A stretch of 64,000 nt of DNA, from NCBI GenBank assembly GCA_015143295.1, contig CM026556.1, forward strand, positions 19,158,547 to 19,222,546. The letters are read 5' to 3'. Below the pieces are notes generated by a model. That model was not told the DNA's origin and did no database searches. It saw only the letters and a list, made by a program, of their open reading frames with translations. Numbering within the stretch: the first letter of the stretch is position 1; each line of letters begins with the position of its first letter. The translations under genes were made by a program, and so were the position numbers. This stretch comes from Tetracentron sinense (taxonomy: Eukaryota > Streptophyta > Magnoliopsida > Trochodendrales > Trochodendraceae). This document shows positions 1-28,842 of the stretch, piece after piece.

Positions 1-748
1 TCCAACATAGGGCATACTAGTTGCGACGGACTATGAACGTCAGCTAGGCATACCCAGTTGAGCATAAGACAAGCAAGAACATGACATGACATGACACGCA
101 TGACACGACAAGACAAGCAATATAGAATATGACAAGACAAGTTTTCAAACACAAAAAGAGTATTTTAAGTCAAGTCTAGCTTATGATGTTTTAAAGAATT
201 TTACTGAATTCGATATGATGCAAGCATGAACTATAAACTGTTACTTTCCGGTCAATTATATGAACTGTTTCCTGCTTTATTTGCATTACTATATTGCTAT
301 GACTGTTGGTTAGTATTTGGTACCCGCTGAGTATTCCATGCTCAGCCGTACTTTTATATCGGTAGGTACATTATGCGATATATGGACTCCGGGTTCCTTG
401 GATAGAGGCGGTTCATGTAGGGCAGGGGACTGCTCTGGTTGTCACCCAAATATTAGGAGTCTTGATATGTGGCCAATGGGTGGGTTGAGAGAGAGAGAGA
501 CATGTATTTTGGGATTTTATTTTGGGGAGTTTTCCTATGAGCTTGAGTGGGTAACTCAAGCAATTGTACCTCTTGTGGTCATTATATTTTATTCAATCGT
601 TGTTTATGTTGACACTTGGAATTTCATTTATTCTAAAGAAAATTTTAGTTCACTATTTTGCATGCCTTGTATACTCCTTGCAGGTTTAATTTGAGGTTAA
701 GTCACATTGCCAAAGTATCCTAACTCTTAGGGGGTATTTTGGGTCACG
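1..748 (+). mobile_element. LTR fragment, 3' end, Tekay-like gypsy (fossil)
   Basis: This is the downstream part of a long terminal repeat in plus orientation, cut by the window start. It ends near 748 with GGGTATTTTGGGTCACGACA, matching the ends of the LTRs at 3690 (inverted) and 13364. The block CGCTGAGTATTCCATGCTCA at 328-347 recurs at about 12912 in plus and at about 4110 in reverse. The stretch at 100-320 also aligns with the reverse complement of 4130-4390. No primer-binding site follows, so it is a 3' LTR or a solo LTR. It is clearly diverged from the young element at 5045-13364. Confidence 0.7.
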
Positions 749-1379
749 ACAGAATTTCAAACAAGAAATCTATGCTCATTAAATTGAGAGATTATCCAAG
801 TTCCAGGTAAGACGATCGATTAAGCTTAAATCCTACGCAGGTGATTTTGTTGAAATCAAATAAGTTTTGAAATATATTTTTATTAAAATATATTCTACTT
901 ATCAAAAGCTTTTCTCAGAATGTTTTACATGAAAAATTGTTTCTCATGGCTTAATCAAAAGTCTTGAAAACTCGGATAATGTACAATGGGCTATGAGTTA
1001 GATAGTATATTAATCTCGAAGCTCCATTAGGGATAATGTTATTGGAATGATCAATTAAATTAAAAAGTTCATGTGACAGGATCCTTAATGGTTAATGTTC
1101 TTATACTGAAATTTTATTACAACATAGATATCTCACGTCACTTGCAATTCCGATGTCATTTCTATTTAATGGTCAATGGGATAACATTGGGTAAGCCAGG
1201 GTTAGAATATCCCAGAGCAATCTATGAAGATGCTCACATAAGAACAAACTCAAATAATAGATTAAAGGTTAATGTATAAATTTTAATTGATTAAATGTTA
1301 ATCATTAATAAATAAATTAAATGTTAATCTATGGTTTAAATTAAATGTTAATCTAAATTTAAGGATAATAATAATGATT
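749..1379. other. Unassigned AT-rich flank
   Basis: No gene is recognised. Short direct repeats around AAATTAAATGTTAATCT occur at about 1275-1365. The short open frames here show no known domain. Confidence 0.4.
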
Positions 1380-2400
1380 ATTTAATTAACACAAAATAAG
1401 GGGAAATGAGTTTGAACCATATCCATAAAACCCAAGAAAATTGGACCTTACTAGTGGGCCCAAGCCCATGGGATTAAATCCCTAGGGTAGGGGCCTATTT
1501 AGAGTTTCCTAATTGGATTAGGATTTTGTTAATTAAATAATTATTATATAATTAATCCTTATATCATGGGATTAGATTCCAATACTTGGAATGCAAGAAA
1601 GAAGGAGATAAGATTAGAAGTTTTTCAAAACTTGGAGTACAAGACTCCTTAGCTCACGCCCCCCCTTTGTAGAGTTTCCTAATTTGATTAGCATTCCTAA
1701 TTGTTAGGAGTTTGTTGGGATTCCTATAATATAGAGAATTAGTTACACCCTTTAATTAAGGAGTCCTTTTATGAAAAGGAAACCTAAATTAGAAAGTTTG
1801 TTATAACTAATGATATCATTAATTAGTAACTCTTCTAAAAGGGATAACTTCTAATTGGAGTAGGATTAGGATAAGATCCTAATCTATATATACCCAATAC
1901 CCAAAACGTGTGGGATGATTTTATTTATTCAAGGAATTCTTTCTCTTCCCCTAAAAACCGTGAGCTATAGAGAGAATAGTTCTCTCTCTCAATTTTCGTG
2001 AGCCGCCTAGGGATAATCCTAGGTGATTGAAGGTTAGGGTTTTGAACTCTTAGGTTTTGTGAGATTGAAAGTCTACTCCAACATCAATCTTCTTCTCTTT
2101 GTTTCTTCAATACCAAGTAAAGATTCAAAAGCTTCACGGCGATAGCGAAGAGCAAGGATCGAGCTTTGAGTATTTCTTCGAGAAATCTCTACAAAGAGTT
2201 TTGACGGTTTGAATTGATTTTTGCTTCACCGGTGAACATCATTCACCGAGGTAATTCTCTAAACATTTAGTTAGTATAATTTACTTTTTTGGTGTAAAGA
2301 TCTTTGGGATCAAGTTTTCCGCATAAATTTTTTATCCGGATTCCCTTCACCTAAAAATAAGGTAATTATCTTAATAAAGATAAGGTAGAAGATCTATGAA
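1380..2400 (+). other. LTR- or promoter-like segment with TATA box and leader
   Basis: A TATATATA box lies at 1885-1892. It is followed by a pyrimidine-rich, leader-like stretch with CTCTCTCT runs and a GGTTAGGGTTTTG block. The layout resembles the U3-R-U5 region of a plant LTR or a gene promoter with its 5' UTR. No open frame or primer-binding site fixes its identity. Confidence 0.3.
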
Positions 2401-2932
2401 ATCATTCCCATCTTTCAGGTCAAGTAAAAAGGATTTTCTGGTGAAAAACAAGCATCCAGTCGAACGGATCAAGGCACAGGATTTTATCTGACCACTGTGT
2501 TCAGCTAGTCGATCAGATCTCTAATCCATTTGATCGGATCCTTTGGGACGAGTATTAAATGAACAGTAACGGCTATTTTGCATTAAATGTTATTCCAACG
2601 GCCATAAGTCATTTTGGGCTATAAATTGTGATCATTTATGAATGAGAAATAATTCTTGATCATTCTATTAACTCCAATCATTCACTAGAAGTTCAAATTC
2701 TAAAATCCTTTGTGAAAAACCTAGAATCCCCAAATCTATGTTTTTGAGTTATTCAACTCCAACCTTTGAGAGATTTTCATAGATCTTCAAACAGTTCTTT
2801 TTCAGCTCATCTAAGGAGCAAATTTTGAGATTGTAATCTCTTCATATACTTTGTATTGAAAATTCAAGATGACATATACTCAGGTGACAAAGCTCCGCTG
2901 GTAGAAAGCAAATTTTCAGAAAAAGGAGGATC
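2401..2932 (+). other. Second LTR-like segment with TATA box
   Basis: A TATAAATT box lies at about 2620-2627. Upstream are short GATC-rich near-palindromic words (GTCGATCAGATC, TGATCGGATC), and downstream is a leader with AACCTAGAATCCCC. The composition suggests the U3/R part of a retrotransposon LTR, but the ends were not found. Confidence 0.3.
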
Positions 2933-4546: not shown

Positions 4547-5039
4547 CTTGAAGGGAGGGAAGTGTAAACTCCCTCATGTGCAATGCTTGTTCTTGTCAAA
4601 AGTGAGGCAAAACATATCTTCAGATATGCCCTACCTCTAATTACAAACCCTTATTCTTGAAAACACCGGTAAACCATGTTCATGCATGCCGTGCTCGTGA
4701 AATCGTGTGCATGCTTTAATTTGGAATTTAATATGACATTTGGGATTTCAACAATACATAGAATATCATTAATTTAAACAAGTAATTATTCATGCCATTT
4801 AGAGAAAGCAATTAAACACACTATCATAAACCCTAGCAATTTCATACCCCTTTAAATCATAACTTTCTTGGTTTATATTTCATTTTCTTCACCTTGACAT
4901 TTCATCAAACATGTGGTGTGTACATTATTGGTTAAAGCCTATTTCATGCTTTTTTAGATGGGTTTATGTTCATAACATACATGTGTCTTCATTATTTGCA
5001 CAATACCCTTCCCATTTCATTCATCACAACACATCCACA

Positions 5040-5044
5040 CAGCA
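5040..5044. other. Target site duplication CAGCA (left)
   Basis: CAGCA here directly precedes the LTR start TGTAGCACC at 5045. The same five bases follow the LTR end GGCGTGACA at 13365-13369. A perfect 5-bp duplication marks 5045-13364 as one insertion. Confidence 0.85.
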
Positions 5045-5742
5045 TGTAGCACCCCAGACTTTTTCATCCTTAATGAATACCACCTTCATAGCTAATTGGC
5101 CGTTTTTATAGTCTAATTAATAAATAAGGGAGAAATCGGAAATTCTGAAACGTCAGAAATGTGCGTTTTCGAAAGACGAACCCAATGCAAGTTGAATCGT
5201 CGAAATCCGACGAGCGAGTCAAAAGATATGGTCAAAACAGTCCAGACATACAGAGCACCGATCGCTCGGTCCAGTCAGCGATCGATCGGTCCATAACCGA
5301 TCGATCGGTAGCTATCGCACGGTCAGAAATTTTGTATGGGGAAATTTTCCAGAGAGTGAGTTTTTGACCGATCGATTGGTCATAAACACCGATCGCTCGG
5401 TAGGCAACCGATCGATCGGTCAAAAACTCACTCTCTGGAAAATTTCCCCATACAAAATTTCTGACCGTGCGATAGCTACCGATCGATCGGTTATGGACCG
5501 ATCGATCGCTGACTGGACCGAGCGATCGGTGCTCTGTATGTCTGGACTGTTTTGACCATATCTTTTGACTCGCTCGTCAGATTTCGACGATTCAACTTGC
5601 GTTGGGTTCGTCTTTCGAAAACGCACATTTCTGACGTTTCGGAATTTCTGATTTCTCCCTTATTTATTAATTAGACTATAAAAACGGCCAATTAGCTATG
5701 AAGGTGGTATTCATTAAGGATGAAAAAGTCTGGGGTGCTACA
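5045..5742. repeat. Near-perfect 698-bp palindrome of U3 sequence
   Basis: The left arm from 5045 and the right arm to 5742 are collinear inverted copies centred at 5393.5, with about five mismatches and no indel seen. Each arm carries the LTR start and ACCGATCGATCGGT-type words. The two arms are read as the U3 of one LTR in plus and the U3 of the other in minus. Confidence 0.9.
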
Positions 5743-5756
5743 TTCTCCCCCCCTTA
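5743..5756 (-). other. Polypurine tract of the Tekay element
   Basis: The minus strand reads TAAGGGGGGGAGAA and directly abuts the LTR start TGTAGCACC. It lies about 100 bp downstream of the pol stop. This is the expected site of plus-strand DNA priming. Confidence 0.75.
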
Positions 5757-5852
5757 CAAAAATTTCATCCTCGAAATTGGGACAATACGTGCTTTACAAT
5801 TTAAACAACTTAGCATAACAATTTGAAACAAAATTACAAGTCATACATAAAA

Positions 5853-8800
5853 TCATTCAAACAACTCGGGGTACTTCGCCTTGACTTCGGCCTCACGTTC
5901 CCATGTAGCCTCTTCTCGAGCGTGATGTTGCCATTGCACGAGAACTAGCGGAATAGTCTTGTTGCGAAGTACTTGGTCTCTTCGATCCAAAATATGAACC
6001 GGCTTCTCAACCAAAGTGAGATCCTCTCGAATCTCAACCGGATCAAGCTCGATGACGTGAGAAGGATCCGGGATGTACTTCCGAAGCTGGGAGATATGAA
6101 ACACGTTGTGGACCGCCGCCATGTGAGCGGGCAAAGCAACACGGTAAGCCACCTCGCCAACTCGAGTAATGATCTCGAACGGACCCACATATCTCGGGCT
6201 AAGCTTGCCTCTCTTCCCGAATCGCATAACACCTTTGGTCGGTGAAATCCTTACAAACACAAAATCACCGACTCGGAATTCAAGATCCCTCCTTCGGTTG
6301 TCGGCATAGCTTTTCTGTCTATCTTGTGCGGTCTTCAACCTCTCCCGTATAAGCTTGACCCTATCCGCGGTTCGTTCAATCAACTCGGGGCCCAAAATCT
6401 TTCTTTCTCCCACTTCATCCCAATACAACGGGGATCTGCAACTCCTTCCGTACAAAGCCTCGAAAGGCGCCATTTGTATGCTTTCTTGATAACTATTGTT
6501 GTAAGCGAATTCCACCAAAGGTAGGTGATCTTCCCAACTTCCCTTGAAGTCTAGCATACATGCTCGGAGCATATCTTCAATAACCTGATTCACCCTCTTG
6601 GTTTGCCCGTCGGTCTGTGGGTGGAAAGCTGTGCTAAAGTCTAATCGGGAGCCCATTGCACCTTGAAAACTTTTCCAAAACCTGGATGTGAATCTTGAGT
6701 CTCTATCCGACACAATACTCACTGGCACCCCGTGTAATCGGACTATTTCCTTGATGTATAGCTCCGCTAACTGATTGGAGTTGAATGTAGTCCGATACGG
6801 TAAGAAATGAGCGGACTTCGTGAGTCTATCAATAACTACCCATATAGCATCGGTCTTCTTGACCGTCTTCGGCAATCCCACGATAAAGTCCATAGAGATA
6901 TGTTCCCATTTCCACTCGGGAATAGGGAGGGACTGTAAAAGTCCAGCCGGTCTCCTGTGTTCGGCTTTGACTTGTTGGCACACCAAGCATTTAGACACAT
7001 ACTCCGCTATTTCTCGCTTCATGTTCCGCCACCAAAAATGCTTCTTCAAGTCCCTATACATTTTGGTACCCCCGGGGTGAACGGTGTACTTGGACCGGTG
7101 AGCCTCGTACAAGATTTCTCGCTTACGCTTCTCATCGGCTGGGACACATACTCTTCCCTTGAAAGTGATAATTCCATCTTCCCTCGCCGTAAAGTCCTTA
7201 CTGCCACTTTTAACTGACTTGTCTCGGCAAGAAAGTAGTTCGGCATCCATTTCCTGCAACTCCTGGATCATGCTCAACACAAATGGCCTAACTGTGATGC
7301 TAGCCATTACCGGCCCATAGGTAGGGAGACTAAAACTGATGTCGAGGTTGGATGCATCCTCCAGCAATCTCCACTCCTTCAGCATCATATGCGCCAAAAG
7401 TCCAGTAGGCTTCCGGCTAAGAGCATCGGCTACTACATTTGCCTTGCCCGGGTGGTATTGAATGGAGCACTCATAGTCTTTCAAAAATTCTACCCATCTT
7501 CTTTGCCTCAGGTTCAACTCTTTCTGGGAAAACAAATACTTAAGGCTTTTATGATCTGTGAATACCTCAAATTGTTCCCCATAAAGATAATGTCGCCAAA
7601 TCTTCAATGCAAACACAACTGCGGCGAGTTCTAAGTCATGAGTGGGGTAATTCTTTTCATGCTCCTTCAATTGTCTTGATGCGTAGGCAATGACTTTCTT
7701 ATGCTGCATAAGGACACACCCAAGTCCGATATGCGAAGCATCGCTATATACCTCATAACCACCATGTCCGGATGGCACAGTAAGGACAGGGGCTGTGGTG
7801 AGGCGTTTCTTCAACTCTTGGAAACTTACTTCACATCGGTCACTCCAACTGAACTTTGCACTTTTTCTTGTCAAGTAGGTGAGAGGTGCAGCCAAACTGG
7901 AGAATCCCTCCACAAATCTCCGGTAGTAGCCTGCCAATCCGAGGAAACTACGTATCTCCGTAACGCTCTTGGGCCTCTCCCAACTCATGACTGCCTCAAC
8001 CTTGGCTGGATCTACAGAAATACCCTCGGCCGACACCACGTGTCCAAGAAACGCGACTTTCTCTAGCCAGAACTCGCACTTACTCAATTTGGCATATAGC
8101 CTATGCTCTCTCAACATCTCCAGAGCAAGACGGAGGTCTCGTGCGTGATCTTCCCGTGTCTGGGAATACACCAAAATGTCATCAATGAATGCAATCACGC
8201 ATCGATCCAAGTAAGATCGGAACACCCGGTTCATCAAATCCATGAATGCCGCCGGTGCATTCGTCAGCCCAAAAGGCATGACAAGGAACTCGTAATGCCC
8301 ATACCGAGTCCTTGAAGCCGTCTTCTGAACATCTTCCGCCTTGATCCTTAATTGGTGATACCCCGATCTAAGATCAATTTTGGAGAAGAATCTCGCTCCC
8401 TTCAGTTGGTCAAATAAGTCGTCTATCCTTGGCAAGGGATAACGATTCTTGATAGTTACCTTGTTCAACTGACGGTAGTCTATACACATCCTCATAGACC
8501 CGTCCTTCTTCTTCACAAAGAGAACCGGAGCTCCCCACGGCGAGACACTTGGTTGGATGAAACCAAGTTGTTGTAACTCCTCAATCTGCTTCTTTAATTC
8601 TTCAAGCTCTATAGGGGCCATTCTATATGGTGCCCTTGAAATCGGAGCGGTACCCGGAGCAAGCTCTATGGCGAATTCGATCTCTCTATCAGGAGGTAAT
8701 CCGGGAAGTTCTTCCGGGAACACATCTAAGAACTCACTCACAACTGGAATAGCCGATGAGTTTTGTGCTTCTGGGTGTGCTATACTCAAGGCTGCGAGGC

Positions 8801-9173
8801 GAGCAATGTCCCTCTCTCTTAATCCTCGGAAGTGAAAAGGCTTACCCCCTTCCGGCTTGAAATTCACCATCTTTTCAAAACACGCAACATGCCCGTAATG
8901 GCTTGCCAACCAATCCATACCAAGAATGACGTCAAAGTCTAAATCTTGGAAACCCAGGACGATAAGGTCGGCTAACAATTCACTCTCCCCCACTTGAACC
9001 ACACTATCCCTGAATATCTTGTCCGTATCAACCGACTTGCCGAGTGGAGTTGCAATGGTCAACTCCCGCTCCAACGGAGTAGCCTCAGTCGAAAAGCCCT
9101 TTGCAAAACTTGGGGAGACAAAAGAGTGAGTGGATCCTGTGTCTATCAACACTCGAGCGAGACATTCGTTCAC
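5853..9173 (-). CDS. pol: Chromovirus pol polyprotein (PR-RT-RNaseH-INT-chromodomain)
   Basis: One open frame of 1106 codons encodes the retrotransposon enzymes. The aspartic protease motif [13 protein letters not shown] is at about residue 10. Reverse transcriptase follows, with [33 protein letters not shown] and the catalytic FIDDILVYS. RNase H has [10 protein letters not shown]. The integrase has an HHCC finger ([19 protein letters not shown]), [17 protein letters not shown] and FHPQTDGQT, then a GPF motif (RYVGPFEI). The last about 60 residues ([16 protein letters not shown]) resemble a chromodomain-like tail, as in the Tekay/Del clade. It lies downstream of gag on the same strand and upstream of the polypurine tract. 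It is not a host gene. Confidence 0.95.
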
Positions 9174-9302
9174 TAATAAAGCGCCTGTGCGATTAAGTAA
9201 CTAATATCTGTAGATTTCAAATAGTAACAAGCATCATACATAGGTAACCCTTAGTATAACTAACCGTATAACAAGCCACAGAAATTTTTATACAACTTAA
9301 AC

Positions 9303-10577
9303 TCAAAATTCTCGCGTACCTTGCACGACATCGTCGGATGCACGTGCGTCTCTCTCCGATAGAGCAAAAACTCGACCCTGAGTGGCTGGGCGAGGAGGCC
9401 GGGCAGACTGTGAGGCCCTCGAAGCCTGAGAAGAGCTAGGCTGAGATGTCTGCCTAATCGGGGGCCTGCTCCCCGAAGACTGAGCTGGCAATCGACGTCG
9501 GGGACACTCCCGAATCATGTGGCCCTGGTCGCCACAATGAAAACAGCCTCCTGTAGCCTTCCGACATTCCCCTACTGGATGCCTCCTTCCACAAAGGGTG
9601 CAGACATCATGTGAATAAGTGGGAGGAGTATAACCCATAGCCTGAGTCACTGCGGGGCGAGGAGCATACGAGGTAGCCGGGCGAAAAGCCGGTGGAGTAA
9701 AAGGGCGGGGGGCCTGTGGTGCCGAGTACATCCTCTGTGACTGAGCCGGCCCTGCGGACTGATAAGACATAGTCCTAGCTCTCTTCTCCCCTGAACTACT
9801 AGACTGTCCCTTCTCTATTCCTCTTCTCTTAAAGAACTCTTCGGAATTAGACTCGGCCAACAATGCTTTGTCCACAACTTCTGAATATGTCTCATGTCGG
9901 AACATTGAGACACGATCCTTGAGGTAGGCCTTCAACCCCCTCTCGAATTTCTGGGCCTTCATAGCCTCGGTAGCTATCATGTGTGGAGCAAATCGAGATA
10001 GCTCTGAGAACTTGGCTTCGTAAGCCGCTACAGACATATTACCTTGCTCCAAGGTAATAAATTCAATTTCTTTCTTTTCTTTCATCCCAACCGGAAAGTA
10101 TTTCTTGTAGAAAACGTCCAAGAATTCTCCCCATGTCCATTCTTGGCCTTGCCGGGTCAACTCTCGGGTCCGAAGTGCAGACTTCCACCAATGGTCGGCC
10201 TCGCCTTCAAGCATAAAGGCAGCCCATGTGACACTCTCTACTTCCGTAGGTGCCAAAACCGAGAATATCTTCTCAAGTTGCCGAATCCAACCCTCGGCAA
10301 CAAGTGGATCAATGCTTCCACAAAAATTTGGAGGCCTCATCCTCCGGAAAGCTTCTATCCCGGCTTGGGCTCGGTTAGGAGGAGCCGGTATAAGTGCCGC
10401 ATTAGGCGGGGTGGCCGGTTGCCTTGCCGCCAACATAGCCAAAGTCTCGGCTATGGATGCGAATGCTTGGGCAAAGTCGGGCTGATCATCACCCGATGGA
10501 GCATCACCTCCATTACCCCTCGTGTTGTACCCGCGACCCCGGGTATTGCGTCTCATGATTTCTCCTGAGAACGACAA
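9303..10577 (-). CDS. gag: Chromovirus gag protein
   Basis: A frame of 424 codons. The N-terminus is Arg/Gly-rich. A helical capsid-type region follows at about residues 75-260 (FRRMRPPNFCGSIDPLVAEG, WTWGEFLDVFYKKYFP), then a Pro/Ser-rich linker and one CCHC zinc knuckle (CFHCGDQGHMIRECP) at about residue 345. The Pro/Ser/Arg-rich tail runs towards the protease. Gag forms the virus-like particle and binds RNA. It lies between the primer-binding site (10870) and pol, with about 130 bp between the two frames. In many relatives gag and pol form one frame, so the element counts as broken at about one place here. Confidence 0.93.
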   Translation of the reverse strand: MSFSGEIMRRNTRGRGYNTRGNGGDAPSGDDQPDFAQAFASIAETLAMLAARQPATPPNAALIPAPPNRAQAGIEAFRRMRPPNFCGSIDPLVAEGWIRQLEKIFSVLAPTEVESVTWAAFMLEGEADHWWKSALRTRELTRQGQEWTWGEFLDVFYKKYFPVGMKEKKEIEFITLEQGNMSVAAYEAKFSELSRFAPHMIATEAMKAQKFERGLKAYLKDRVSMFRHETYSEVVDKALLAESNSEEFFKRRGIEKGQSSSSGEKRARTMSYQSAGPAQSQRMYSAPQAPRPFTPPAFRPATSYAPRPAVTQAMGYTPPTYSHDVCTLCGRRHPVGECRKATGGCFHCGDQGHMIRECPRRRLPAQSSGSRPPIRQTSQPSSSQASRASQSARPPRPATQGRVFALSERDARASDDVVQGTREF

Positions 10578-10869
10578 TACAGCATGAGTCTAACTTGGAT
10601 ACGCATTTAGTACAATTTTTCGTAATTCACTCAATACATATTCATCAAACACATTTAATAAGTACAACACCAATAATGTACACATGATATATAACACAAT
10701 AGCATAACATACAATCCGTGTTCCTAGTGTAGGACTCTATGTTCGGTTGAAGTTCAACCCATTTTGACTAAGACTAACTTGTTAGTCTATACTTGGAATA
10801 CAACTTTCTAAGGTGATTCTAATACCTTGTTCAATCATCTAAGTGACCCTAGGGACTCTAATACCTAGG
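10578..10869 (-). other. Untranslated leader of the Tekay element
   Basis: This is the spacer between the primer-binding site and the gag start. It is AT-rich, with no frame or recognisable structure. Confidence 0.6.
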
Positions 10870-10881
10870 GCTCTGATACCA
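10870..10881 (-). other. Primer-binding site, initiator tRNA-Met
   Basis: The minus strand reads TGGTATCAGAGC, complementary to the 3' end of initiator methionine tRNA, the usual primer of Tekay and many other plant gypsy elements. It lies 4 bp inside the LTR end (TGTCACGCCCC on plus from 10886). Confidence 0.9.
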
Positions 10882-10885
10882 CTTC

Positions 10886-11297
10886 TGTCACGCCCCAAAA
10901 TACCCCCTAGGAGTTAAGGGATACTTTAGAGGTGACTACGTGTACCTGTCAAACCATCCTGTAATGCAAGAGGCTAAACATAATATAATACAATGATAAT
11001 CAGAGCGCGGAAACTAAACATAAGTGCGGAAGCATAAGCCAACTTTTTCTTTTCTTCTATAACTCCAAATAGTATTCCAAGTTAACATATACCAAATACA
11101 ATCAAAGTAAAGGTGGACATGCCCACCTATCAAAATACAAAAAAAGGAACTCTCTAACACTCTCCTCTCAACAGTAGTCGAGGTATGGCCACACATCCAA
11201 GTCCCCATCCTCTTGAGACTGCCATGTAATAGGTGGCTCCCTCTCCTCTACATACTCCTCCTCGACCCAAGGCTCGGGGTCGAGGACATCCACGGTA
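10886..11297 (-). repeat. LTR 3' part, minus copy (inverted with 12953-13364)
   Basis: This 412-bp arm runs from TGTCACGCCCC to GTCGAGGACATCCACGGTA. The reverse complement lies at 12953-13364 with about three mismatches. The spacer of about 1.65 kb is LTR sequence in plus orientation. The arm ends exactly where the CGATCG word array starts (about 11300). Confidence 0.9.
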
Positions 11298-11360
11298 ACA
11301 CCGATCGCTCGGTAGGCAACCGATCAATCGGTCATGAACACCGATCGCTCGGTCTTCGCG
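11298..11360. repeat. Array of near-palindromic CGATCG words (right junction)
   Basis: It contains ACCGATCGCTCGGT twice and ACCGATCAATCGGT once. The same words lie at the left junction (about 5260-5530) and, diverged, in the old LTR at about 13805-14030. Both orientation switches of the Tekay element occur here. Confidence 0.85.
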
Positions 11361-12331
11361 TTTTTGCAGAAATTTCAGTAAGGGCTTTATCGTCTTTTGG
11401 GGGTTAAACCCTTTCTCCTTAAGGCTTGCCCGAGCCTTAGGGCATCATTCACTATACTTAGAGAGATTTGGGAGATAAGAGAGAAGAGAAAAGGGTTTCC
11501 TAAACCTAGGTTGCTTTTGGAGAAGAAATCAAAGGGGTGAAGACCCTAGATCGTCCCCAAGCACGTTTTCTTCAAGATTTCAACTCAAGCTCGTGTGGAG
11601 GTGCATTCTCCAAGCTAGGGCAGCACTCACTCACATTTTGAAAGAGGTTTCTTCCCCCAACTCAAGTCCCCTTCAAGCAAAGGCTTCCTCCTTCCAAATA
11701 GAGCTTCTATTTCAAGGTTTCTTCAAGATCACACCTTGATCTAAGGTTAGTACACCCTACTAACTTTCCCTAGCAATAACCTAGGTTTTGTAGTGTAAAT
11801 GGTGATTATATATATTATGCTTTTCCTTCCCTATGCATTGTATTAACTCAACAAATATAAACAAGATAAGGGGAATGGAATAAATGTGTGGATGGGATGT
11901 CGATTGAGGCGATTGGATGCCGTATGGATGTTGTGTGATGTGTGAAAAGGAAAATGGAAGATGGGCACTTTACAAATAACGAATGTACCTTGATGTCTTG
12001 ATGAAAAATACGTACTAAATAAAGGAAATGGAAGGACTAAGAAATGTGGCCCACCGGGTGTTTGATAAAATGACTAAACCAGGGATAAATGGACTTAATG
12101 AAGAAAATGGAAATAGAAATTGTGTAAATGTTCTTAGAAATGATAAATTGCTCAAATGTGCTATATGTTGCCTAAATTTTCATACCACTATGTTAAGGAT
12201 TGAAATGCCATAGTCATGTGATCCGCTCGTTCAAGTATGTCATCATGATTACCACTATTGACAAGCACACAAGCACGCATGCATGCATGAAACCGGGTTT
12301 TTCCAAGATTGTATTTGTATATGAAATGAAT

Positions 12332-12676
12332 CAAGAACATGACAAGGAGGTTGGTAGCCCAAGGAAGGGTGCTAGCCTCTGGCTCACAAGAGAAACGGAA
12401 CAAGAACATGACAAGGAGGTTAGTAGCCCAAGGAAGGGTGCTAGCCTCTGGCTCACAAGAGAAACGGAACAAGAACATGACAAGGAGGTTAGTAGCCCAA
12501 GGAAGGGTGCTAGCCTCTGGCTCACAAGAAAAACGGAACAAGAACACGACAAGGAGGTTGGTAGCCCAAGGAAGGGTGCTAGCCTCTGGCTCACAAGAGA
12601 AACGGAACAAGAACATGACAAGGAGGTTGGTAGCCCAAGGAAGGGTGCTAGCCTCTGGCTCACAAGTATACAAGTC
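12332..12676 (+). repeat. Tandem repeat, 69-bp unit x 5, in Tekay LTR
   Basis: Copies start at 12332, 12401, 12470, 12539 and 12608 with CAAGAACATGACAAGGAGG (one reads CACG). They contain GGTAGCCCAAGGAAGGGTGC and CTCTGGCTCACAAG. The unit is a multiple of three, so open frames run through on both strands. These frames are by-products and show no protein family. Confidence 0.95.
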
Positions 12677-13364
12677 AAGAACAAATCAAGACATGAAATA
12701 CAAGACAAGACACGATACACATACATGATTTGACCGAGACACGAAAAAGGTTTCCGAGACATGAGTTTTACCGAGGTTTTTGCATTCATATACGCATGTC
12801 AAGATATGGCTATGTATCTTATGCTTTCACTATTGCTTTAAATTAATATCTTGTATTGCTCACTGTTGTTATGCGTTCGTTATTGTTATGGTTAGCTAGT
12901 AGTTTGTACTCGCTGAGTATTCCATGCTCAGCCGTACTTTTATGTCGGCAGGTACCGTGGATGTCCTCGACCCCGAGCCTTGGGTCGAGGAGGAGTATGT
13001 AGAGGAGAGGGAGCCACCTATTCCATGGCAGTCTCAAGAGGATGGGGACTTGGATGTGTGGCCATACCTCGACTACTGTTGAGAAGAGAGTGTTAGAGAG
13101 TTCCTTTTTTTGTATTTTGATAGGTGGGCATGTCCACCTTTACTTTGATTGTATTTGGTATATGTTAATTTGGAATACTATTTGGAGTTATAGAAGAAAA
13201 GAAAAAGTTGGCTTATGCTTCCGCACTTATGTTTAGTTTCCGCGCTCTGATTATCATTGTATTATATTATGTTTAGCCTCTTGCATTACAGGATGGTTTG
13301 ACAGGTACACGTAGTCACCTCTAAAGTATCCCTTAACTCCTAGGGGGTATTTTGGGGCGTGACA

Positions 13365-13369
13365 CAGCA
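13365..13369. other. Target site duplication CAGCA (right)
   Basis: It matches 5040-5044 and directly follows the LTR end at 13364. Confidence 0.85.
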
Positions 13370-14234
13370 TCCATCACCCAACATTCATTCTCACATCACA
13401 ATCCATCTTCTATTATGTTCATACTTAAGGAAAAGAAGAAAGAAGGGAAGAAAAGAGAGGATATGAGCTAGGAGGGTAGCATATGGTACCGACCTTGAAA
13501 AGCGAGGAAAACCCTTCAAAACGTGCTTGGAGTTGCTGCCCTAGCTTGGAGAACGTGTCCCTCACTTGCTTGGAGTTGGATTTGAAGAATCCAAGCCTTG
13601 AGATGAGATCTAGGGTCCTTGAACTCTTGATTTCTATCAAGATGAAACCCTAGGTGAAAACCCCTCTTCCACTCTCTCACTCTCTCTCAAATACTCTAAG
13701 TATGGTGAATGAGACCCTCAAGACTCGAGCAAGCCTTAATTGGCAAGGGTGAAACGCCCAAATGACGAAAAAACCCTTAATGAAATTCTACAAAAACGTG
13801 ATAGACCGATCGATCGGTGGTCAATACCAAGCGATCAGTCGCCTACCGAGCGACCGGTGTTCTTGACCAAGCAATCGGTCAAAAACACGCTCTCTGAAAT
13901 TTTTTCCCATACAAAAAAGTGCACCAGTCGATAGCTACTAATCGATCGATTGTGGACCGATCGATCGCTAATATGGACCGAGCAATCGGTTATGGACCGA
14001 TCGATCGCTCTCATGACCGAGCGATCAGTTCTCTGCAAGTTTTGACACCAAGTCCATTTTTCACCCATTCCTACTACTTGGACTTATCCTACTTCCCTTT
14101 TGACCTCTTCTAAACATGGCTGGGACCCTTTCAAGGCTTATAGACATTATTAAATAATTTATTTAATTAATTATAGCATTCTTGCAAAATTCTCAAAGTT
14201 TCTAACTTCTCATTTCATGAAGATGGAGATTACA
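13370..14234 (-). mobile_element. Old Tekay-like LTR, right half (minus orientation, fossil)
   Basis: Read on minus, this is the U3-to-leader part of an LTR. It has diverged CGATCG words (13800-14030), then a block aligning with 11360-11650 of the young LTR in reverse (for example the CCAAGCTAGGGCAGCA words). It continues the half at 3690-5044. The outer end is set at GAGATTACA (14234) for its TG...CA form. GATGG at 14222-14226 also matches the left flank (3685-3689), so the exact end and target duplication are unsettled. Confidence 0.6.
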
Positions 14235-14239
14235 AAGGC

Positions 14240-15744
14240 ATCATGCCTTGACACACATTCCAAGACATGTGCAAAAGTTCCGAGGTTCTACAGATGGACC
14301 CTGAAGACTTGCTTTGTGTTTAGGACTCAAAATCTGGATTGGTATATCATGATCCCGAATCACATCCTACATTTGATCAATTTGCTTCTGAGCCAACTCT
14401 CTGTTGGTCTTCTGGCTTTGACTAGCCTTTTTGCGCTTATCACCCTTCTTTTGGGTTGGTGATTGGACTTGCTTTCCCTTGTTGCTCTTCTTGCGACCAC
14501 TTGCAGTCACGGACTTCTTCCTCTGATGCTTTCTAATAGGCCAGCTTGTGATGGACCACTTCTCTTAACAACACTCGATGCTGATCCAGAGGCATCAGTC
14601 TTCGCCTTTGAGGTCTATTCCACTAAATACTACTTCAAATTAATGCTGGGAATGTCCGTTCCCCCATTCTTCATATAAGAAGTAGTGCAATCTAACCACC
14701 AAGAAACAAAATGAAAAGTGGGTCGACCCACCAGTGTTTGAGGTGGGATGTAGAAACGACGCCCTATATCCCTGCAGCGGATAAACTCCCATTCGTGTTT
14801 CACTTGGCGAAGGTCCATAACAATCCTAGGGATCTCTTCCAAAATTGGAGGTTTTCCTTGATCATATCGGAATTTCCTGGCAAAATGGCTCGGGTGATAA
14901 GGATCGACAAAACCATTCTTCTCCAACACACCACAGTAGCTTGGTAGGACGAAGACTCATCATCTTCAGATAATCGAGCCGAGTAAAATGAGCTTCACCC
15001 TCCGAAGGGTTATCTACCAAAATAGAATCTCCAGCATGCTCAAAAGTCCCTCGAAATGGACGTGGCTCATAGCGAGAAGGAGTGGTAAACATATTTCGCA
15101 ACATTCCCTAACATCGAATCGAGTCAGTACTTGGCCTGCGATGACAATCAGACTTGGAAGATTGAGCTCTGACGCAAATTCCGCCCTCCTTGGATATGTG
15201 TAGGTGAAATACTGGCTTATCCAGCCTTACAAGTACTGGAAAGTTCCCTGAGCCAATTTCCTTCCTGAATATTGGCTCCTTAGTCCCCAACTCTCGGTAT
15301 AGTCTGGTCATCATCAGAATCATAAGATAGTCATCCTTCCCACCATTACAAAAGTTTCCCGGTGAATGACCTCTCCTCGACAAGAGGGCAGCAAAAGCTA
15401 CAAAACCAACATAAAATGAAGGCCGCTAAATAGCCTTCCTGGCTCACACCATAGGTTGTTAGAATATTAGAACCCCGTATTTCTTCGTCAGATGGGGTGG
15501 GCTCCATATTCTTCAAATACTCGCATGACTTCCCATGGAAGAAATATGTCAACCACAAAGTGAAAGAAATCCTGCGAAGTTTGCTCTTTGAGGCGGTCTT
15601 CTCCTTCTTCCATACTTCTGTTGTCTCGGTTATCTCTTCAGCTTCGAAGTCAGCAGTCTCATCCTCTTCTCCCTCAGCCGCAGCCGTAACTTTCACACAT
15701 TTTGCCTCGCTCAACTTCCATCCAAGGATGGTATTGTAGGCCAC
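14240..15744 (-). pseudogene. Plant mobile domain (PMD, aminotransferase-like) pseudogene
   Basis: Minus-strand frames in order (15744, 15383, 15104, 14929 and on to about 14290) together cover a PMD protein. Recognisable blocks are SQEGYLAAFILCWFCSF, YEPRPFRGTFEHAGDS, the typical PYHPSHFARKFRYDQGKP and RPTFHFVSWWLDCTTSYMKN. A Lys/Arg-rich basic stretch follows (about 14500-14380) and reaches a stop. PMD occurs in domesticated host proteins of the MAIN/MAIL type, in MULEs, and in extra frames of some gypsy elements. The frame changes several times, so it looks broken unless some breaks are introns. The downstream part seems to have been displaced by the nested LTRs to 3665-2933. Which of the three sources it comes from is undecided. 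Confidence 0.6.
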
Positions 15745-17483: not shown

Positions 17484-17734
17484 TGTAACGCCTACATGAG
17501 AATATTTCACTCCATTCGAATAAATAAATATATTATATTCAAATATTTACTCTTTTTCTTAATCAGAGGTACTTCCCCAAATCGGGAAGATAATTAACAA
17601 TCCGGATTTACCCGGATTGGAAGGATAGTCCACCGCATAAAATAATAAATTTCATACAATAATGGAGGTAATTTGACAGCAAGATTTGAGATGTCTACCA
17701 TTAAAAGACACTTAAAATTTGTGTGTACAATCAT
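17484..17734. other. Unassigned segment before the gag arm
   Basis: It begins TGTAACGCCTACATGAG, which could be an LTR start, but no matching second LTR was seen. It is AT-rich and non-coding. Confidence 0.25.
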
Positions 17735-18348
17735 AACATAGCATACTTGATAAAGAATGTGGATAAAATATCATACATCTCCAGTTTCAAATCAGATGAT
17801 GATTTGAAATTGTATATATGTAATAAGAGTAAATGCCGGAGATGCAGATAATCTCCAGGAGGGTATAGGGTGTAATTTTATCATGCCACAGGCGGACCGG
17901 CATGATCAGGTTCATTAGAATAGACTAGTAAGAAGACCAAGAACCATTTCAACTTAGAGAATAACGTATCATAGTCTTCTCAGTGAACGAAAAGTAGTAT
18001 TCAATATCGATAGTAAAGAACTGGCAAAGATTCTGATTAGATAAACCTTGTACTTGGGATATTTGGATAATATTTTGAATAAACTAGAATTATAGCCTCC
18101 TCTAAGTCAAGGATAATAGAGTGTTGTTGCTCTCATAATTAGTAATACAATGTCGTCTGAACAAGTTTTTGAGGACGTCTTGGTCGAAGCATTCGAAGCG
18201 ATTACCGCTCCAATCACACTAGTACAACAATGGTCTCATAGTTGCGTTCCTAGTATCCCAGCACCCGAACAGGGAGGTGATAAGGGAGCGGAAAATGATA
18301 CCAAGAAAAGGAACCTTGAAGACTTGGACAAAGTTGGCACTTCTGAAG
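17735..18348 (+). mobile_element. Gypsy gag fragment, left arm of an inverted pair, first part (fossil)
   Basis: This is a leader and gag start in plus. The frame from 18150 begins MSSEQVFEDVLVEAFEAI. The stretch aligns in reverse with 30440-29800, including both leaders. The arm is interrupted at 18348 by the MULE and resumes at 28843 with the CCHC zinc-knuckle part. It is a short, broken gag with no pol attached. Confidence 0.75.
18340..18348. other. MULE target site duplication CTTCTGAAG (left)
   Basis: This 9-bp sequence is identical to 28834-28842. Nine bases is the classic Mutator superfamily length. The uninterrupted homologue at about 29795-29810 (reverse) carries one copy of the site, confirming insertion here. 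Confidence 0.95.
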
Positions 18349-18493
18349 GGATTTTTTCCCCATTTAAGCTCGATTTTTTGAAAAACCTCCAAAATCAGCT
18401 TACTTTTTTTTTACTTATTTTTTCCAGCTTTCCTGCGTGTATAGCGCTCAAGCGTGTGGGAGAAGACGTTAGAAAGTCCAAACTACCCCTCCT
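18349..18493 (+). repeat. MULE left terminal inverted repeat
   Basis: It pairs with about 28700-28833 in reverse with few mismatches. Shared blocks include GTGTATAGCGCTCAAGCG and GAAAGTCCAAACTACCC. Confidence 0.93.
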
Positions 18494-18589
18494 TAGTTAA
18501 CATTTGTGATTCGAACGAATGAAGTGAGCCCTAAAGGAAGAAATTTCGAACTCTCTAAAAGAAGAAGAAAATTTCGAACGAATAGTGTG

Positions 18590-18735
18590 CACTGTAAGAG
18601 AAGAAGAAGAAGAAGGAGAAGAAGAAAGAAAAAATTTTGACCGCCCTAAAAGAAGAAGAAGATTTCAAACGAATAGTGTGCACTGTAAAAGAAGAAGAAG
18701 AAGAAGAAGAAAGAAGAAAGAAGAATGAAGAGGAG
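18590..18735. repeat. GAA-rich microsatellite
   Basis: A purine-rich run of GAA/GAAGAA units just inside the left TIR, with a duplicated TTTCGAACGAATAGTGTGCA block at about 18550-18690. It is low complexity, and the short frames here are artefacts. Confidence 0.8.
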
Positions 18736-18825
18736 GCTCGATACTACGACAAGGTTTTCCAACTGAGGTATTTTTCTCTTTGGAAAAGCCCCCATCGCAT
18801 GAAGAAAATCAAAAAAAAAATCTGA

Positions 18826-19046
18826 AATGTGGATGAAGATCAAATATACAAAAATCCCCATGAAGAATATCGAAAAAAAAACGATGATATCGAAAGCAAA
18901 TTTCGATATCGAAAAAAAAGGACGAATATCGAAATTTTTTTTCGATATTCGTTTTTTTTTCGATATCGAATTTTTTTTTCGATATTCGCCCTTTTTTTCG
19001 AGATTCATACATTTTTTTCCCATCTTCATTTCCACACTTGAGGTTT
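18826..19046. repeat. AT-rich palindrome 1 of ATATCGAAAA words (5' subterminal)
   Basis: Alternating GATATCGAAAAAAAA and TTTTTTTTCGATAT words form a hairpin centred near 18943. The outer arms GTGGATGAAGAT and ATCTTCATTTCCAC also pair. The same vocabulary appears at 24840-25060 and 28260-28430 but nowhere else noticed in the window. Confidence 0.85.
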
Positions 19047-19617
19047 CTATATGGAGTTGCTATGAGATGATTTCTTAGATAATCCACTTTATATAGAAAG
19101 CTCACCTCTCACTTTGAATGTAGTATGTTTAATCCACTTTATTTTGAATAATTATAATTTTAATGATATTACAATTTTTTTAAGCTATGAGTTATGCTTT
19201 TGAAGAGGGTAGCTATGATATTACAACTTTTTTTAATGATATTACAAATGTTTTTTTTAATGATATTACAATTTTTTTTGCTATGAGTTAGTATGACATT
19301 ACAACTTGAGACCTTGTTTTGACTATTGTAGTTATATTATCTATGATGAGGATCATCAGTTTTATCGTAGCTTGTATGTGCAACAATTGTTTTACAGGCT
19401 TGGCGATTGTATCTTTGAGTGATTTGCAGTTCTTGTAATTATTGATACCTTAGATGCATCCTTAGATATATTTGTCTTAGGAGCTCAATCAAAATCTTAG
19501 TAATTATTGAAGAAGCACCATGTTTTTTAGTAATTCTTTATGCTTAAATTTCATGAGCCCCCATTTTCATTTACTTGTAGTTGTTTAATAAATTTAATTA
19601 ATATTTGCAGATTTAAG
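19047..19617. other. MULE region upstream of the passenger ATG
   Basis: T-rich sequence with repeated AATGATATTACAA words at about 19160-19270. A TTTGCAG acceptor at about 19610 suggests an intron in the 5' UTR. No clear TATA box was assigned. Confidence 0.4.
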
Positions 19618-20672
19618 ATGCCTAAAACCGGAGAAAAGGGAAAACAGAAAAGTAAAGGAGAAGAAATGATGGAAAAGTCTCAACCTTCCATTAAATGTAC
19701 TATGAAGGAATGGTTTGAGGTCATAAGGCCGAACTTGGAGGCCAATCCTATGAGAAAGAAGTTATGGTTGGAGTGTTATTTTGGGCATCTTTATGATTTG
19801 CCCAAAAATCCCCAGTGTGGTCAAGCATTTCAGCATCTACTCGAGAGGCAGAGGAGTAAAGATAAGCTAATTTTTGACGTGGTTGGTAGGATGATGAGGT
19901 TCAATGAGTTACACTTTACTATGATCATGGGCTTGGATGCTAGTTTGGATGCCCCTCCCACCATAGCACATGCTCATACTGAAGAGGCGGGTTCTCCAAC
20001 ATCTTTTAAAGTTCGAATGTTTGGTAAAACACAATTGATTAAAAAGAATGAGTTAGTTCAGAAGTTCAATATGTGTGATAATGATATGGATGCAGTTAAG
20101 ATTGCTTTAGTCCTATACGTCGAGATGTTAATCATTGCAAAAGAGACGCACTCCAACATCGAGATTCAGTACTTGGAGTTGGTGGAGGACCTTGAGGCCT
20201 TCAACAAATACCCTTGGGGCACTGTAGGGTATATGAGATTTAAAGAAGGTCTTAAAACTGCTCATACTGAAACTTCAAAATATAATATTATCGGTTGTGG
20301 TATCGCTTTCCAGGTAAATTATATCCTTGAGTTGCTATTTTATGTTCCATTTGTAATTAGATTCCTATTGCTCATTTAACGTTCTAATGATGATAGATTT
20401 GGATGTTTGAAAGCATCCCCGCACTTGGGAAATTATGTTCCCGCGGTGGTCCTCCCGTGACTATGACATTCCCTCGTGTTCTGCGTTGGAAAAATACTGG
20501 TTTTAAAAGCTATAGGACATTACAAGATATGATATTTAATTTAGAAGAGGTACGAATTTAGTACGAAGTTATATATAATTTTTATTTACTTGTCTATTTT
20601 TTTAATTCTAACTTTATTTGATGTTCACAGCTTGAGGTTTTATCTATGCATCCCACTGCTCATGAGGCAGAG

Positions 20673-22334
20673 TGATAAGTGCTTAATTTTGCTTAATTAT
20701 CCTCATTTAAATAAGCATTATCATACTTCTTTGGTTTATATCTTCATTTTTACACGTAAAGTGGTGTATTTTCTCCTCACCAATGCGTTGTCCTCTTTCT
20801 CTTAATTTTTATGATACATTTGCATGTATTTATACATGTCTTGGAAGGCCGCATGCAAAATATTTTTAAGAGAGACTTATTACGTGTATTTATTTTTTGT
20901 AGGAATCCTAACCCCAGATTACTCTTGGGATTCAAGAAGCCCAAAGTGCAAAGCCCAAGCCAAAAGTCCAAGAAGCCAAGTCTCAAGTCAAAGAGTCAAA
21001 GCCCAAGAGCAAAGCCCAAGACCAAGTATAGAAAGATTCTACAACATGGCTGGAGAATCTTAGGAAGATATGGATTAATATGATTTTGGCATAAAAATGG
21101 TGGAATTCTCTTGAATTAGAAAGAAGAAGTGTGCTATATTGATGTTTCTATTTCAGAAAAAAGGAGAAAGCCTATTTTGGTCACAAGAACTCTTTATTTT
21201 GGGTGGATTTTAGAATTCAAGTAAGGAGCTTAATGGAGGTCAACTAAATCTACAAGAAAGGCAAGAAATTTCGTGGATGGCTAGAGGAGTGCTATTATTT
21301 AGCAACCAATCTCAAACAAAGAAGGAGGATTTCCCGGATTCCCGCCTAATCTGGACAGTACTTACTAATTTGGACATAACTTTTGACTCAAAATTCGGAT
21401 TAAGGCAAGGTTTGATGTTTTGAAAAGAAGACTTAAAGGGGAACAAAATTTTATTTCACAAAGATCCCCTAATTCAGACGTTTAAGGGGTCAAAACATGT
21501 CATCAAGAGGAAGGAAGTGCAATTTTGGTTGGAATTTTGGAATTAGAAGTTTCTCTTTTGTTTTTCTTTCCCTTCTCTTCTTCCCTTTAGTCTATATAAA
21601 CCTAAAGTGAGAGACTTTTGGGGCTCTCTCTGATATTTTCTCATTCTCTTTTCTCTCTTCTTCTTTTAGTTTTTTTTGGAGTTATTTTATTGTAGTGTTT
21701 GGAAAACCATTAAGGAGGATGACAACTCCAAACATGGTTGGCTAAACATCCTTCTAAGGTTAGGGATTTGAAACCTTTTTCCAATTTATGTGGATGATGT
21801 GGATGGTTTGATTATTTATTTTAATTGAATAATTTTCTTAGTTTAGTTAATTGTTCCTCTCTATATGTTCTTTGATTTCATATGATCGAATGATATATGG
21901 AATGCTTGGATCCCCTGTGAGTTGGATACAAAGTGATTTTTTATTTCTCTAATTATTCAATTGAATTTAATGGTCAGTGGTTTTATCGTATAATTTTTCA
22001 TCTAGATTAAATTATTATTTAATTCTAGATGTGTTTTCATCCAAATCTAAGCATAAGGAGGGATAGGTGGATTTTCCTGAAACCTTAGACCTCTTTTTCA
22101 TTGCTTCACAGTAACAGTGATTTTTGCTCCATTCTCATTGAGTGGAAAACTGATTTTAAATCTCTTTTTTCTCTAGATTTCGTTTCCTTAATTCTTGTTG
22201 CACAATAGTCAATCCCTGTGGATTCGACCCTGTGCTCACCAGATACATCAACTGTGTCACTTGTGCACTTGCAAGTATATTATTTTTACTCTTGATTTTA
22301 TGTCCATTAATTTGGATTAAATTAAGTTGTAACA
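20673..22334 (+). mobile_element. Solo LTR, Athila/Tat-like gypsy (fossil)
   Basis: It runs from TGATAAGTGCTTAATTTTGC to TTAAGTTGTAACA, flanked by CAGAG at 20668-20672 and 22335-22339, a perfect 5-bp duplication. The phrase TCCCTGTGGATTCGACCCT near its end is typical of Athila/Tat LTRs. It is 1,662 bp with no internal genes. It lies inside a passenger exon, so it is younger than the MULE's capture of that gene. Confidence 0.85.
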
Positions 22335-23026
22335 CAGAGCAGCAAGTAGTGAGGGATGTGCTTGTACGAATGAGGGACCATCAGGCGGGATCTAAGGATT
22401 ATGAGGAAGATGAAGATGATCAGGAGGAGGATAGTTCTGAGGAGGAGGAGGATGGTGAGGAGGAAATTGAGGTAGATGTAAAGGAGGAAGATGATGGTGA
22501 TGATGAGGAGGAAGATAGTCCCTCCCCAGTACGCATCAAAAGGTCAAAGCATGAGCGAAGGGCAAAAAGTGTAAGTAACGTGCACTCATTTATTCAATAT
22601 ATATACCTTCTATGTATAAGCGTGTCAAACAACCTTATTGGCCTAATGTCTATCATTATTCCAGGTACACGATATCCCTTCTATGTACAAGCGGCTCAAG
22701 CAATATATTGGGCGACGGATTGATGTCTTAGCCACAAAGATAGATTGTAGGTTTGATTGCATGACAGACAGATTGATTATTCATGAATCAACACTTAAGG
22801 CTATAAGAGAGGATATGAGAGAAAGAGAACATAGAAAGGTTGTTTCTCTTTTTCCTTATTGTACATTTTCTATCTTCCACACTATTTCTAAAATCTAAAT
22901 TGTTTGTAGGGTGAAAAGGTTGCAGAGGCTAACCCTTCCACCCAGTTAAGAAGTGATGATGAGAGACCACCATTTTCAGAGGGGGTGGGTGTGGGGGATG
23001 ATTATGTATCTGGGTCTTTTCGACGG

Positions 23027-23222
23027 GGGGAGGGAATTGAGTATACTACCACATCTTCTCCACAGCGGGAGAGAGTTTAGTATGCTACCACATCTGTTCC
23101 ACAGCGGGAGGGAGTTGAGTATGCTACCACATCTTTTCCACAGGAGGAAAGAGTTGAGGATGCTACCACATCTTTTCCACAGTGGGAGGGAGTTGAGTAC
23201 GCTACCACATCTTTTCCACAAG
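23027..23222 (+). repeat. 39-bp tandem repeat x 5 in the passenger exon
   Basis: Five 13-codon units encode variants of GVEYATTSFPQ. Period three keeps the frame. Unit 2 holds the TAG at 23078-23080. Confidence 0.9.
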
Positions 23223-24520
23223 GGGAGGAAAGAGTAAAAAGATTAACAATTATTTCTAAGCATCTCCGCTCTCCTTACATGGATACTAGGCGGAGGAAAC
23301 AACCGGGTTGGACCGGGTTGGAGATGGATCCAATGAGGGAAGCAAGGGCAGCAGAAAAAAAGGCCCTCTGAGATTTTTTAAATACGGAGACAAATGAAAA
23401 TAATGTTAGGTAATAAACCTAACTCTTTAATTTATGATTAATGATTAGTTAATGATCCTAGTTAATGATCATTTTTCATTTAATTATTGTAATTGTGAAG
23501 GACTTTATATCATATCAAGATCACTCCGGAGCTGCTCAATGACGTGTCAACTCCGAAATGCGAGATCGATTCCACAGTAATACTCTTCTCTCGGCTATAA
23601 TTATGTGTTGCTCATTTAATTTTTAATGTTATTAGTCTAACACTAATACAATGTAGATAGCATATTGACATATGGATGGAGTTGTTGGCACAACGACATG
23701 AGAGATTTCCCACTATTTACGCCCAGACTTGTGTCTTTGGACCTACTTTTTTCATGGTAAGGCGGGTATTTATTAGTTTATTATCTGCATTAATCTTAAA
23801 GCTATTCTAATTATTTAATGAATTGGCAGGAATTCCTACTTCTTGAAGCAGAAACATTAAGATTATATATTGCTGCTAAAGACTTTGTGACACGTGAGTC
23901 ACTAAAGATGAACATCTCCGATAACCTTAGCAATCTAGTTCAGGGTTTAGATGGACGACCAAGCATGTGGTCGGTTGAAAGAGTGTACCTCCCGTTCCTC
24001 CATAACAAGCATTGGGCGTTGGTGGTGTTGCAACCTCCAACGAGGGAAGTCATAATTCTGGATTCATTATTCACTAATGCGATGGACAGGTACACAGTAC
24101 AACTGGAGACCCTTAGAGAGTGCATCCCTGCCCTCTTCCATATGTTTGGTGACATAGGAGCTCTAACAGGCCAGGAATGGGTAGTACGGGAAGTCACCTA
24201 CTTACCAACACAGAAGAATGAGTAAGTCTTTTAACTATCCATAATCAAATATATTTTTAATTATAATGCACTGATGTTATGTGTTGTTAATGTGTTTCAG
24301 TAAAGATTGTGGAATATTTTTGATGAAATATGTTGATTTCCTATGTTCTGATCTTCAGATTCAATTTGAGCAGGTAATTTTTTTTACTCACTATTTATGC
24401 TCTCTGAATTTTGTTTTCTCTTACATTGTTTAACCATAAAATTTTAATTTGTAGACTGATATAACGAAGTTCCGGAAACGAATAGCGTACGAGATGATGA
24501 GTGGGATTGCCTATCCGTGA

Positions 24521-28106: not shown

Positions 28107-28259
28107 TATCTGCAACATCGAGGAACAAACAATGCATAATATCAATATATGAATGCTTTAAAATAATATATAAAATATTAAAAATAGTTGGAAAATAGTC
28201 TATATGGATTTAACTAAATTTGTTATGCAATATCGACAAAACAATATTAATATACAGAC

Positions 28260-28430
28260 AACAGTAATAAAACATTTCGATATTCGAATTTTTTTGCATT
28301 GATATCAAAATTTATTGTTCAATATCGAAAAAAAATTTCGATATCGAATTTTTTTTCGATATTGAACAATAAATTTCGATATTAATGCAAAAAAATCGAT
28401 ATTGATACCAAAAAATTCCGACATTCACCA
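28260..28430. repeat. AT-rich palindrome 3 of ATATCGAAAA words (3' subterminal)
   Basis: It is centred near 28338 on TTTCGATATCGAA. The arms include TTTATTGTTCAATATCGAAA against TTTCGATATTGAACAATAAA, and outside these GAATTTTTTTGCATTGATAT against ATATTAATGCAAAAAAAT. The end of the array is about 400 bp from the element end, mirroring palindrome 1. Confidence 0.9.
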
Positions 28431-28699
28431 ATATTTCCACCAAATAATCCGATTTATTGAACAACGTTTCAAATCACAAAAAAATTGGTCCATACATGTC
28501 GATATGTCTTATATTTTGATTTCAATTTCATCTGGCGTAGGTTTAAGATTACCTACATGAGAAATAAAAAAAAATACATACCTCTGAACTGAAATGTAAT
28601 GAGCAAAATTATTATTATTCTTCTTCTTCTTCCTTCTTTTCCTTTGTGGAGTGTTCAAATTCGAAACCTAAACACTTATGTCAGTGTTTACGTGTTTTG

Positions 28700-28833: not shown

Positions 28834-28842
28834 CTTCTGAAG
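28834..28842. other. MULE target site duplication CTTCTGAAG (right)
   Basis: It is identical to 18340-18348. The gag reading resumes just after it. Confidence 0.95.

Follow-up and report, generated by a model that had tools for sequence, protein, structure and literature searches.

A long terminal repeat retrotransposon of Tetracentron sinense with a reversed interior inside a single target-site duplication

Results

A single insertion with a reversed interior

A 64,000-nucleotide (nt) stretch of the Tetracentron sinense genome (assembly GCA_015143295.1, contig CM026556.1; C6:19158547-19222546 in the coordinates used here), hereafter the window, contains at positions 5045-13364 an 8,320-bp insertion of a long terminal repeat (LTR) retrotransposon with CAGCA on either side, the interior of which runs opposite to its outer ends. 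Copies and junctions were searched for in the 1.16-Gb genome. An earlier interpretation made from the letters alone (the sequence-only reading) had proposed one plus-oriented insertion, delimited by the outer ends TGTAGCACC (from 5045) and GGGGCGTGACA (to 13364) and a perfect CAGCA duplication, between which the polypurine tract, pol, gag and primer site all read minus. The outer ends and the duplication are borne out in the sequence, and the minus orientation of the inner features is confirmed in both the sequence and the reading frames (Table 1).

The joined flanks of the insertion, with one CAGCA, align across the join in 40/40 scored matches at 88-92% identity (the best 40 of 5260 candidates), and a single 5-mer (CGGCA) occupies the target position in all ten of the paralogues aligned. 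These paralogues represent the empty site with a single 5-mer; therefore, the insertion is single and its target was an older repeat. The proposal of one insertion with its own target-site duplication (TSD) is thus supported by the paralogous empty sites and also by a copy of the family in ordinary order at C5:50192591, which has LTRs of 2,410 and 2,415 bp, 5,143 aligned bp of interior and the TSD GCTAC. Positions 5045-13364 are shown to be one plus-oriented insertion into an older, related repeat.

We mapped the window element onto the second LTR and the interior of the C5 copy, whose coordinates serve as LTR positions throughout. Relative to that copy, the blocks run LTR 1-378 (+), LTR 336-1 (-), interior 5143-1 (-), LTR 2415-2004 (-) and LTR 341-2415 (+). 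Put together, the outer parts add up to a complete LTR and overlap in part; LTR positions 379-2003 (~1.6 kb) are missing from the reversed 5′ LTR, a loss that the sequence-only reading had not recorded. That reading had taken a palindrome at 5045-5742 and an inverted pair at 10886-11297/12953-13364 as the traces of an LTR-to-LTR inversion. Our repeat comparison recovered both: the latter as 412 nt at 99% identity, and the former as a 340-nt pair (5041-5380/5407-5746) at 98% identity with 26 nt spacing, of which the bases beyond 5045 and 5742 are a chance extension. The 336-bp palindrome and the 412-bp inverted pair are not themselves due to chance, because their parts correspond precisely to the two ends of an LTR found complete at other loci. 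Of the proposed inversion, the reversal of the interior between its own LTRs stands, whereas a simple inversion does not: it would leave the whole LTR middle twice, and one copy is absent; therefore, a deletion came with or after the inversion. Taken together, the interior was very probably inverted within a single insertion, whatever the route.

Table 1. Features of the element (window positions) and the basis of each assignment
Feature	Position	Strand	Basis
Left TSD, CAGCA	5040..5044	.	Sequence; paralogues with single CGGCA there
Left LTR, first part (LTR 1-378), begins TGTAGCACC	5045..5422	+	Mapped on C5 LTR
Inversion junction 1: 16-bp homology ACCGATCGATCGGTCA common to arm b of one LTR and reverse-complemented arm a of the other	5407..5422	.	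Sequence and C5 mapping
Other LTR, first part reversed (LTR 336 to 1)	5407..5742	-	Sequence and C5 mapping
Interior, complete, 5,143 bp, reversed	5743..10885	-	C5 comparison
Polypurine tract TAAGGGGGGGAGAA, adjoining LTR start	5743..5756	-	Sequence
pol frame, 1115 residues stop to stop: protease, reverse transcriptase, RNase H, integrase, SH3-like, weak chromodomain	5853..9200	-	Open reading frame and Pfam
GT...AG interval, 135 nt, in-frame stops, intron-like, between gag and protease frames	9185..9319	-	Sequence
gag frame, 428 residues stop to stop	9303..10589	-	Open reading frame and Pfam
Primer binding site TGGTATCAGAGC	10870..10881	-	Sequence
Original 5′ LTR, last part reversed (LTR 2415 to 2004); terminus TGTCACGCCCC on plus strand at 10886	10886..11297	-	C5 mapping
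Inversion junction 2: <=1 bp homology, LTR loop bases 337-340 missing	11297..11298	.	Sequence and C5 mapping
Right LTR, remainder (LTR 341-2415), ends GGGGCGTGACA	11297..13364	+	C5 mapping
Right TSD, CAGCA	13365..13369	.	Sequence

The junctions lie at a hairpin of the family LTR

The family LTR carries a 16-bp inverted repeat with arm a at 321-336, arm b at 363-378 and a 26-nt loop; arm a resembles TGACCG(A/G)TCGATCGGT and arm b ACCGATCGATCGGTCA, and the two are reverse complements or nearly so. Both arms are present in 43/47 motif matches of fetched copies (some loci overlap, so that not all are distinct copies), and the pair is perfect in six. Folded as DNA, 215 nt of the C5 LTR that include the arms reach -52.3 kcal/mol, compared with a mean of -29.8 kcal/mol for 200 shuffles (z -6.3). 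Junction 1 of the element falls on the arms; at junction 2, reversed LTR 2004 is joined to LTR 341, inside the hairpin loop. LTR 341-362 (22 bp) is unambiguously present on both sides; therefore, two LTRs contributed to the structure, not one LTR split by an insert.

This overlap bears on a reading by two insertions, in which a plus-oriented solo LTR holds a minus-oriented element of the same family and outer LTR parts were later deleted on both sides. Family LTRs do enter LTRs: next to the element, at 13509-13990, lies a minus-strand LTR-like stretch with 78% identity to the LTR of the element, and in the C12 locus the start of a minus LTR meets a plus LTR at position 1005. However, a motif scan of 5000-13400 finds the exact LTR-end motifs once each, at the outer ends and beside the polypurine tract and primer site, whereas neither inner junction shows an exact LTR terminus; the presence of LTR 341-362 on both sides would need a target duplication of 22-38 bp, compared with 5 bp here and at C5; and two deletions would, by coincidence, have to end at the same hairpin. 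No inner element with LTR termini and its own TSD was found at the locus, and the absent inner termini and the 22-bp overlap led us to reject plain nesting or a solo LTR with an insert; two insertions with later deletions we regard as very unlikely.

We consider it probable that the inversion arose after integration, by recombination of the arms of two LTRs. A chromovirus-like element inserted in plus orientation into the older related repeat, giving the CAGCA duplication; arm b of the 5′ LTR would then have been joined, in inverted register, to arm a of the 3′ LTR, flipping the interior and leaving at the opposite end an LTR palindrome with ~2 kb per arm and the 26-nt loop at its tip; this palindrome may have broken in the loop, one side losing 1.6 kb before rejoining with <=1 bp homology. 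An equivalent one-step form, inseparable from this one, would be near-simultaneous breaks in the two LTRs, one of them costing 1.6 kb, followed by end joining. The junctions, homologies and positions are read from the assembly itself, and from them we infer the order of the steps and the repair route.

The same hairpin could also have acted before integration, during reverse transcription: plus-strand DNA from the polypurine tract would snap back at the a/b hairpin and copy itself to the LTR start, jump to genomic RNA to give an antisense copy of the interior, and jump a second time from 2004 to 341, whereupon integrase would insert the complementary DNA (cDNA). Snap-back at the hairpin predicts exactly a palindrome with a 26-nt loop; the single TSD and the intact outer ends suit integration of a finished cDNA; and template switching has been proposed for single-TSD complex LTR elements of plants, although these have three LTRs and the main text of that study describes no inversion (Sabot and Schulman 2007, PMC1950507). 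Yet the route requires a minimum of two or three separate strand switches and the rescue of both ends, whereas an inversion, as a matter of argument, makes both junctions in one event, and we judge an origin in reverse transcription unlikely. Autointegration was dropped on the argument that both cDNA ends were used in the genomic insertion. Loss of the LTR middle by splicing (the E1 boundary lies <=2 nt from CAG/G) was likewise dropped, since the first LTR part passes the only donor-like site seen by eye.

The structure could instead be an assembly or library artefact, from a fold-back read or a mis-oriented contig, and in keeping with this no second haplotype of the locus was found with a right-flank query (14050-15345), whose 43 matches are full length only here. 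But the window contains no N; the palindrome arms differ at 5/336 sites and then run into host DNA on one side and the polypurine tract on the other, as those of a fold-back read would not; mis-orientation of a contig would explain neither the loss of 1.6 kb nor the meeting of the parts at a 16-bp homology; and an artefact would have to have produced two separate false junctions. We therefore hold an artefact to be highly improbable.

Other copies of the family and the age of the insertion

A query across one junction matched at full length only at the window locus (1/40, the best 40 of 2173 candidates), the other 39 matches starting at the break, and a query across the other junction did so only at the window locus (both strands), the rest covering at most 129/191 bases (the best 40 of 1130 candidates); such queries could not reveal inversions with other breakpoints. 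That no other copy with these junctions appeared among the candidates scored speaks against the reverse-transcription route. The LTR runs unbroken through 321-378 in 42/42 other loci with an LTR start (41 distinct places; 62 loci mapped), the mapped loci having been found with LTR-part queries and so being biased toward unbroken copies; one more weak match (L052, 81%) spans LTR 1-198 only. Facing LTR starts at C14, considered as a second inverted case, lie ~2.2 kb apart with no family match between them and were taken as two insertions.

Divergence within each LTR pair, which the sequence-only reading had put at about 1%, was correctly estimated: the first pair differs at 4/321 sites once the 16-bp junction homology is left out, and the second at 3/412. 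Combined, these 7/733 differing sites (K = 0.0096) correspond to 0.37 million years at a substitution rate of 1.3e-8 and to 0.69 million years at 7e-9 per site per year. The LTR parts, at ~0.4-0.7 million years, agree with the recent insertion that had been proposed. LTR divergence dates the insertion; for the flip, proposed to be recent as well, this date is only an upper limit, which applies if the flip came after insertion.

Several observations weigh against a single element inverted in place, among them the lone haplotype and the restricted reach of the junction queries. The part designated S1 differs from copies at C19 and C13 at 3 sites, compared with 5 for its own partner, and E1 differs from a C4 copy at 2 sites, compared with 3 for its partner. 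Two of the differing sites are variable elsewhere (first-part site 102 in 11/50 rows, last-part site 71 in 1/16), and variants shared by the partners are common in the family (first-part sites 44, 212 and 327, the last of which lies within the junction homology, and four last-part sites). The nearer non-partner copies and the variable sites weaken the claim that the parts are sisters, and with it the date; the raw-count kinship fits private and recurrent mutation after insertion and is no proof that both LTRs originated in one element. The order of events, moreover, is reconstructed from the end product only.

Coding interior, family and neighbouring features

Judged by its predicted domains, the element is a Ty3/gypsy-type LTR retrotransposon, chromovirus-like, whose clade is presumably Tekay/Del. 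Pfam matches in the pol frame to RVP_2 (5-117), RVT_1 (229-388), RNase H (452-576), an integrase zinc domain (689-746) and rve (766-861; 21.8 bits, under the cut-off of 32.6) follow the Ty3/gypsy order of protease, reverse transcriptase, RNase H and integrase, and a Chromo match at 1070-1114 scores 21.2 bits (cut-off 25.1). The gag frame matches Retrotrans_gag (63 bits) and Ty3_capsid (38.8 bits), as a gag should, and zf-CCHC at 20.7 bits, slightly under the cut-off of 20.8. LTRs with an inner primer site and polypurine tract are present together with a 5-bp TSD, the primer site and tract being reversed with respect to the outer ends here and normal in the C5 copy; the primer site is presumably of the initiator methionine tRNA type. 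In three other copies, the donor of the GT...AG interval is kept in 3/3 and the acceptor AG in 2/3.

Inside the LTR, at 12323-12667, lies a 69-bp tandem repeat of ~5 units, the number of which may vary among copies. The C12 locus (L028, C12:19357500-19366500) is perhaps a family solo LTR inside the LTR of another copy. Elsewhere, LTR parts are equally spaced at C8 (28866813, 28870347 and 28873882; ~3,534 bp) and at C15 (676934, 684392 and 691850; 7,458 bp), which suggests tandem, LTR-sharing arrays of the family. The window also contains a probable Mutator-like element of 12.7 kb at 17727-30447, where long inverted repeats enclose a DUF1985 frame and frames for a MULE transposase (SWIM, MULE and MuDR DNA-binding domains). 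Direct repeats at 58409-58793 and 63614-63999, 5.2 kb apart and 93-95% identical, are perhaps another LTR pair, cut by the window end.

Discussion

The element belongs to an ordinary family and has undergone an uncommon yet understandable rearrangement; it is not a new kind of element. It shares with plant Ty3/gypsy chromoviruses the TG...CA LTR ends, the 5-bp TSD, the primer site TGGTATCAGAGC, gag and the protease-reverse transcriptase-RNase H-integrase order, may share a chromodomain-like C-terminal end (the match is under the cut-off), and differs from them in its reversed interior, the 1.6 kb missing from one LTR and the 135-nt GT...AG interval. It resembles the complex elements of Triticeae, rice and maize ascribed to template switching in being rearranged within a single TSD and in its highly similar outer LTRs; those elements, however, combine three LTRs with two interiors and are described without any inversion (PMC1950507), whereas here there are one inverted interior and parts of two LTRs, with the breaks at a hairpin. 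The LTRs of one element also recombine with each other after insertion when solo LTRs or recombinant LTR elements form, but there the outcome is deletion via direct LTRs, in contrast to inversion via short inverted arms. In the literature titles and abstract openings that we covered, most subscription journals lying outside this coverage, no LTR-to-LTR inversion with an intact TSD was found, which is no proof of novelty.

The copy lacks direct terminal repeats with the primer site and polypurine tract correctly oriented and, because of this, should be unable to retrotranspose. As RNA, the left palindrome is predicted to fold into a stem over nearly all of its 698 nt (-652 kcal/mol, compared with a mean of -187 kcal/mol for 20 shuffles). 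Mu killer of maize provides a model for silencing in trans. That the flipped element is likewise a natural silencing locus, whose small RNAs could silence active family copies in trans, is in our estimation a long shot; if it were true, a transcript starting in the outer LTR would hold a near-perfect hairpin of 336 bp and a stem of 412 bp, matching both ends of a young family.

More generally, inverted copies give rise to long LTR hairpins, from which small RNAs might derive, and annotation software that relies on direct LTRs may mistake loci of this sort for fragments or for two elements. The steps proposed here are testable, since the two junctions, the empty site and ordinary copies can all be read. 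If our interpretation is right, LTR retrotransposons may die by a route other than reduction to a solo LTR, namely through recombination in inverted register via short inverted arms within the LTRs.

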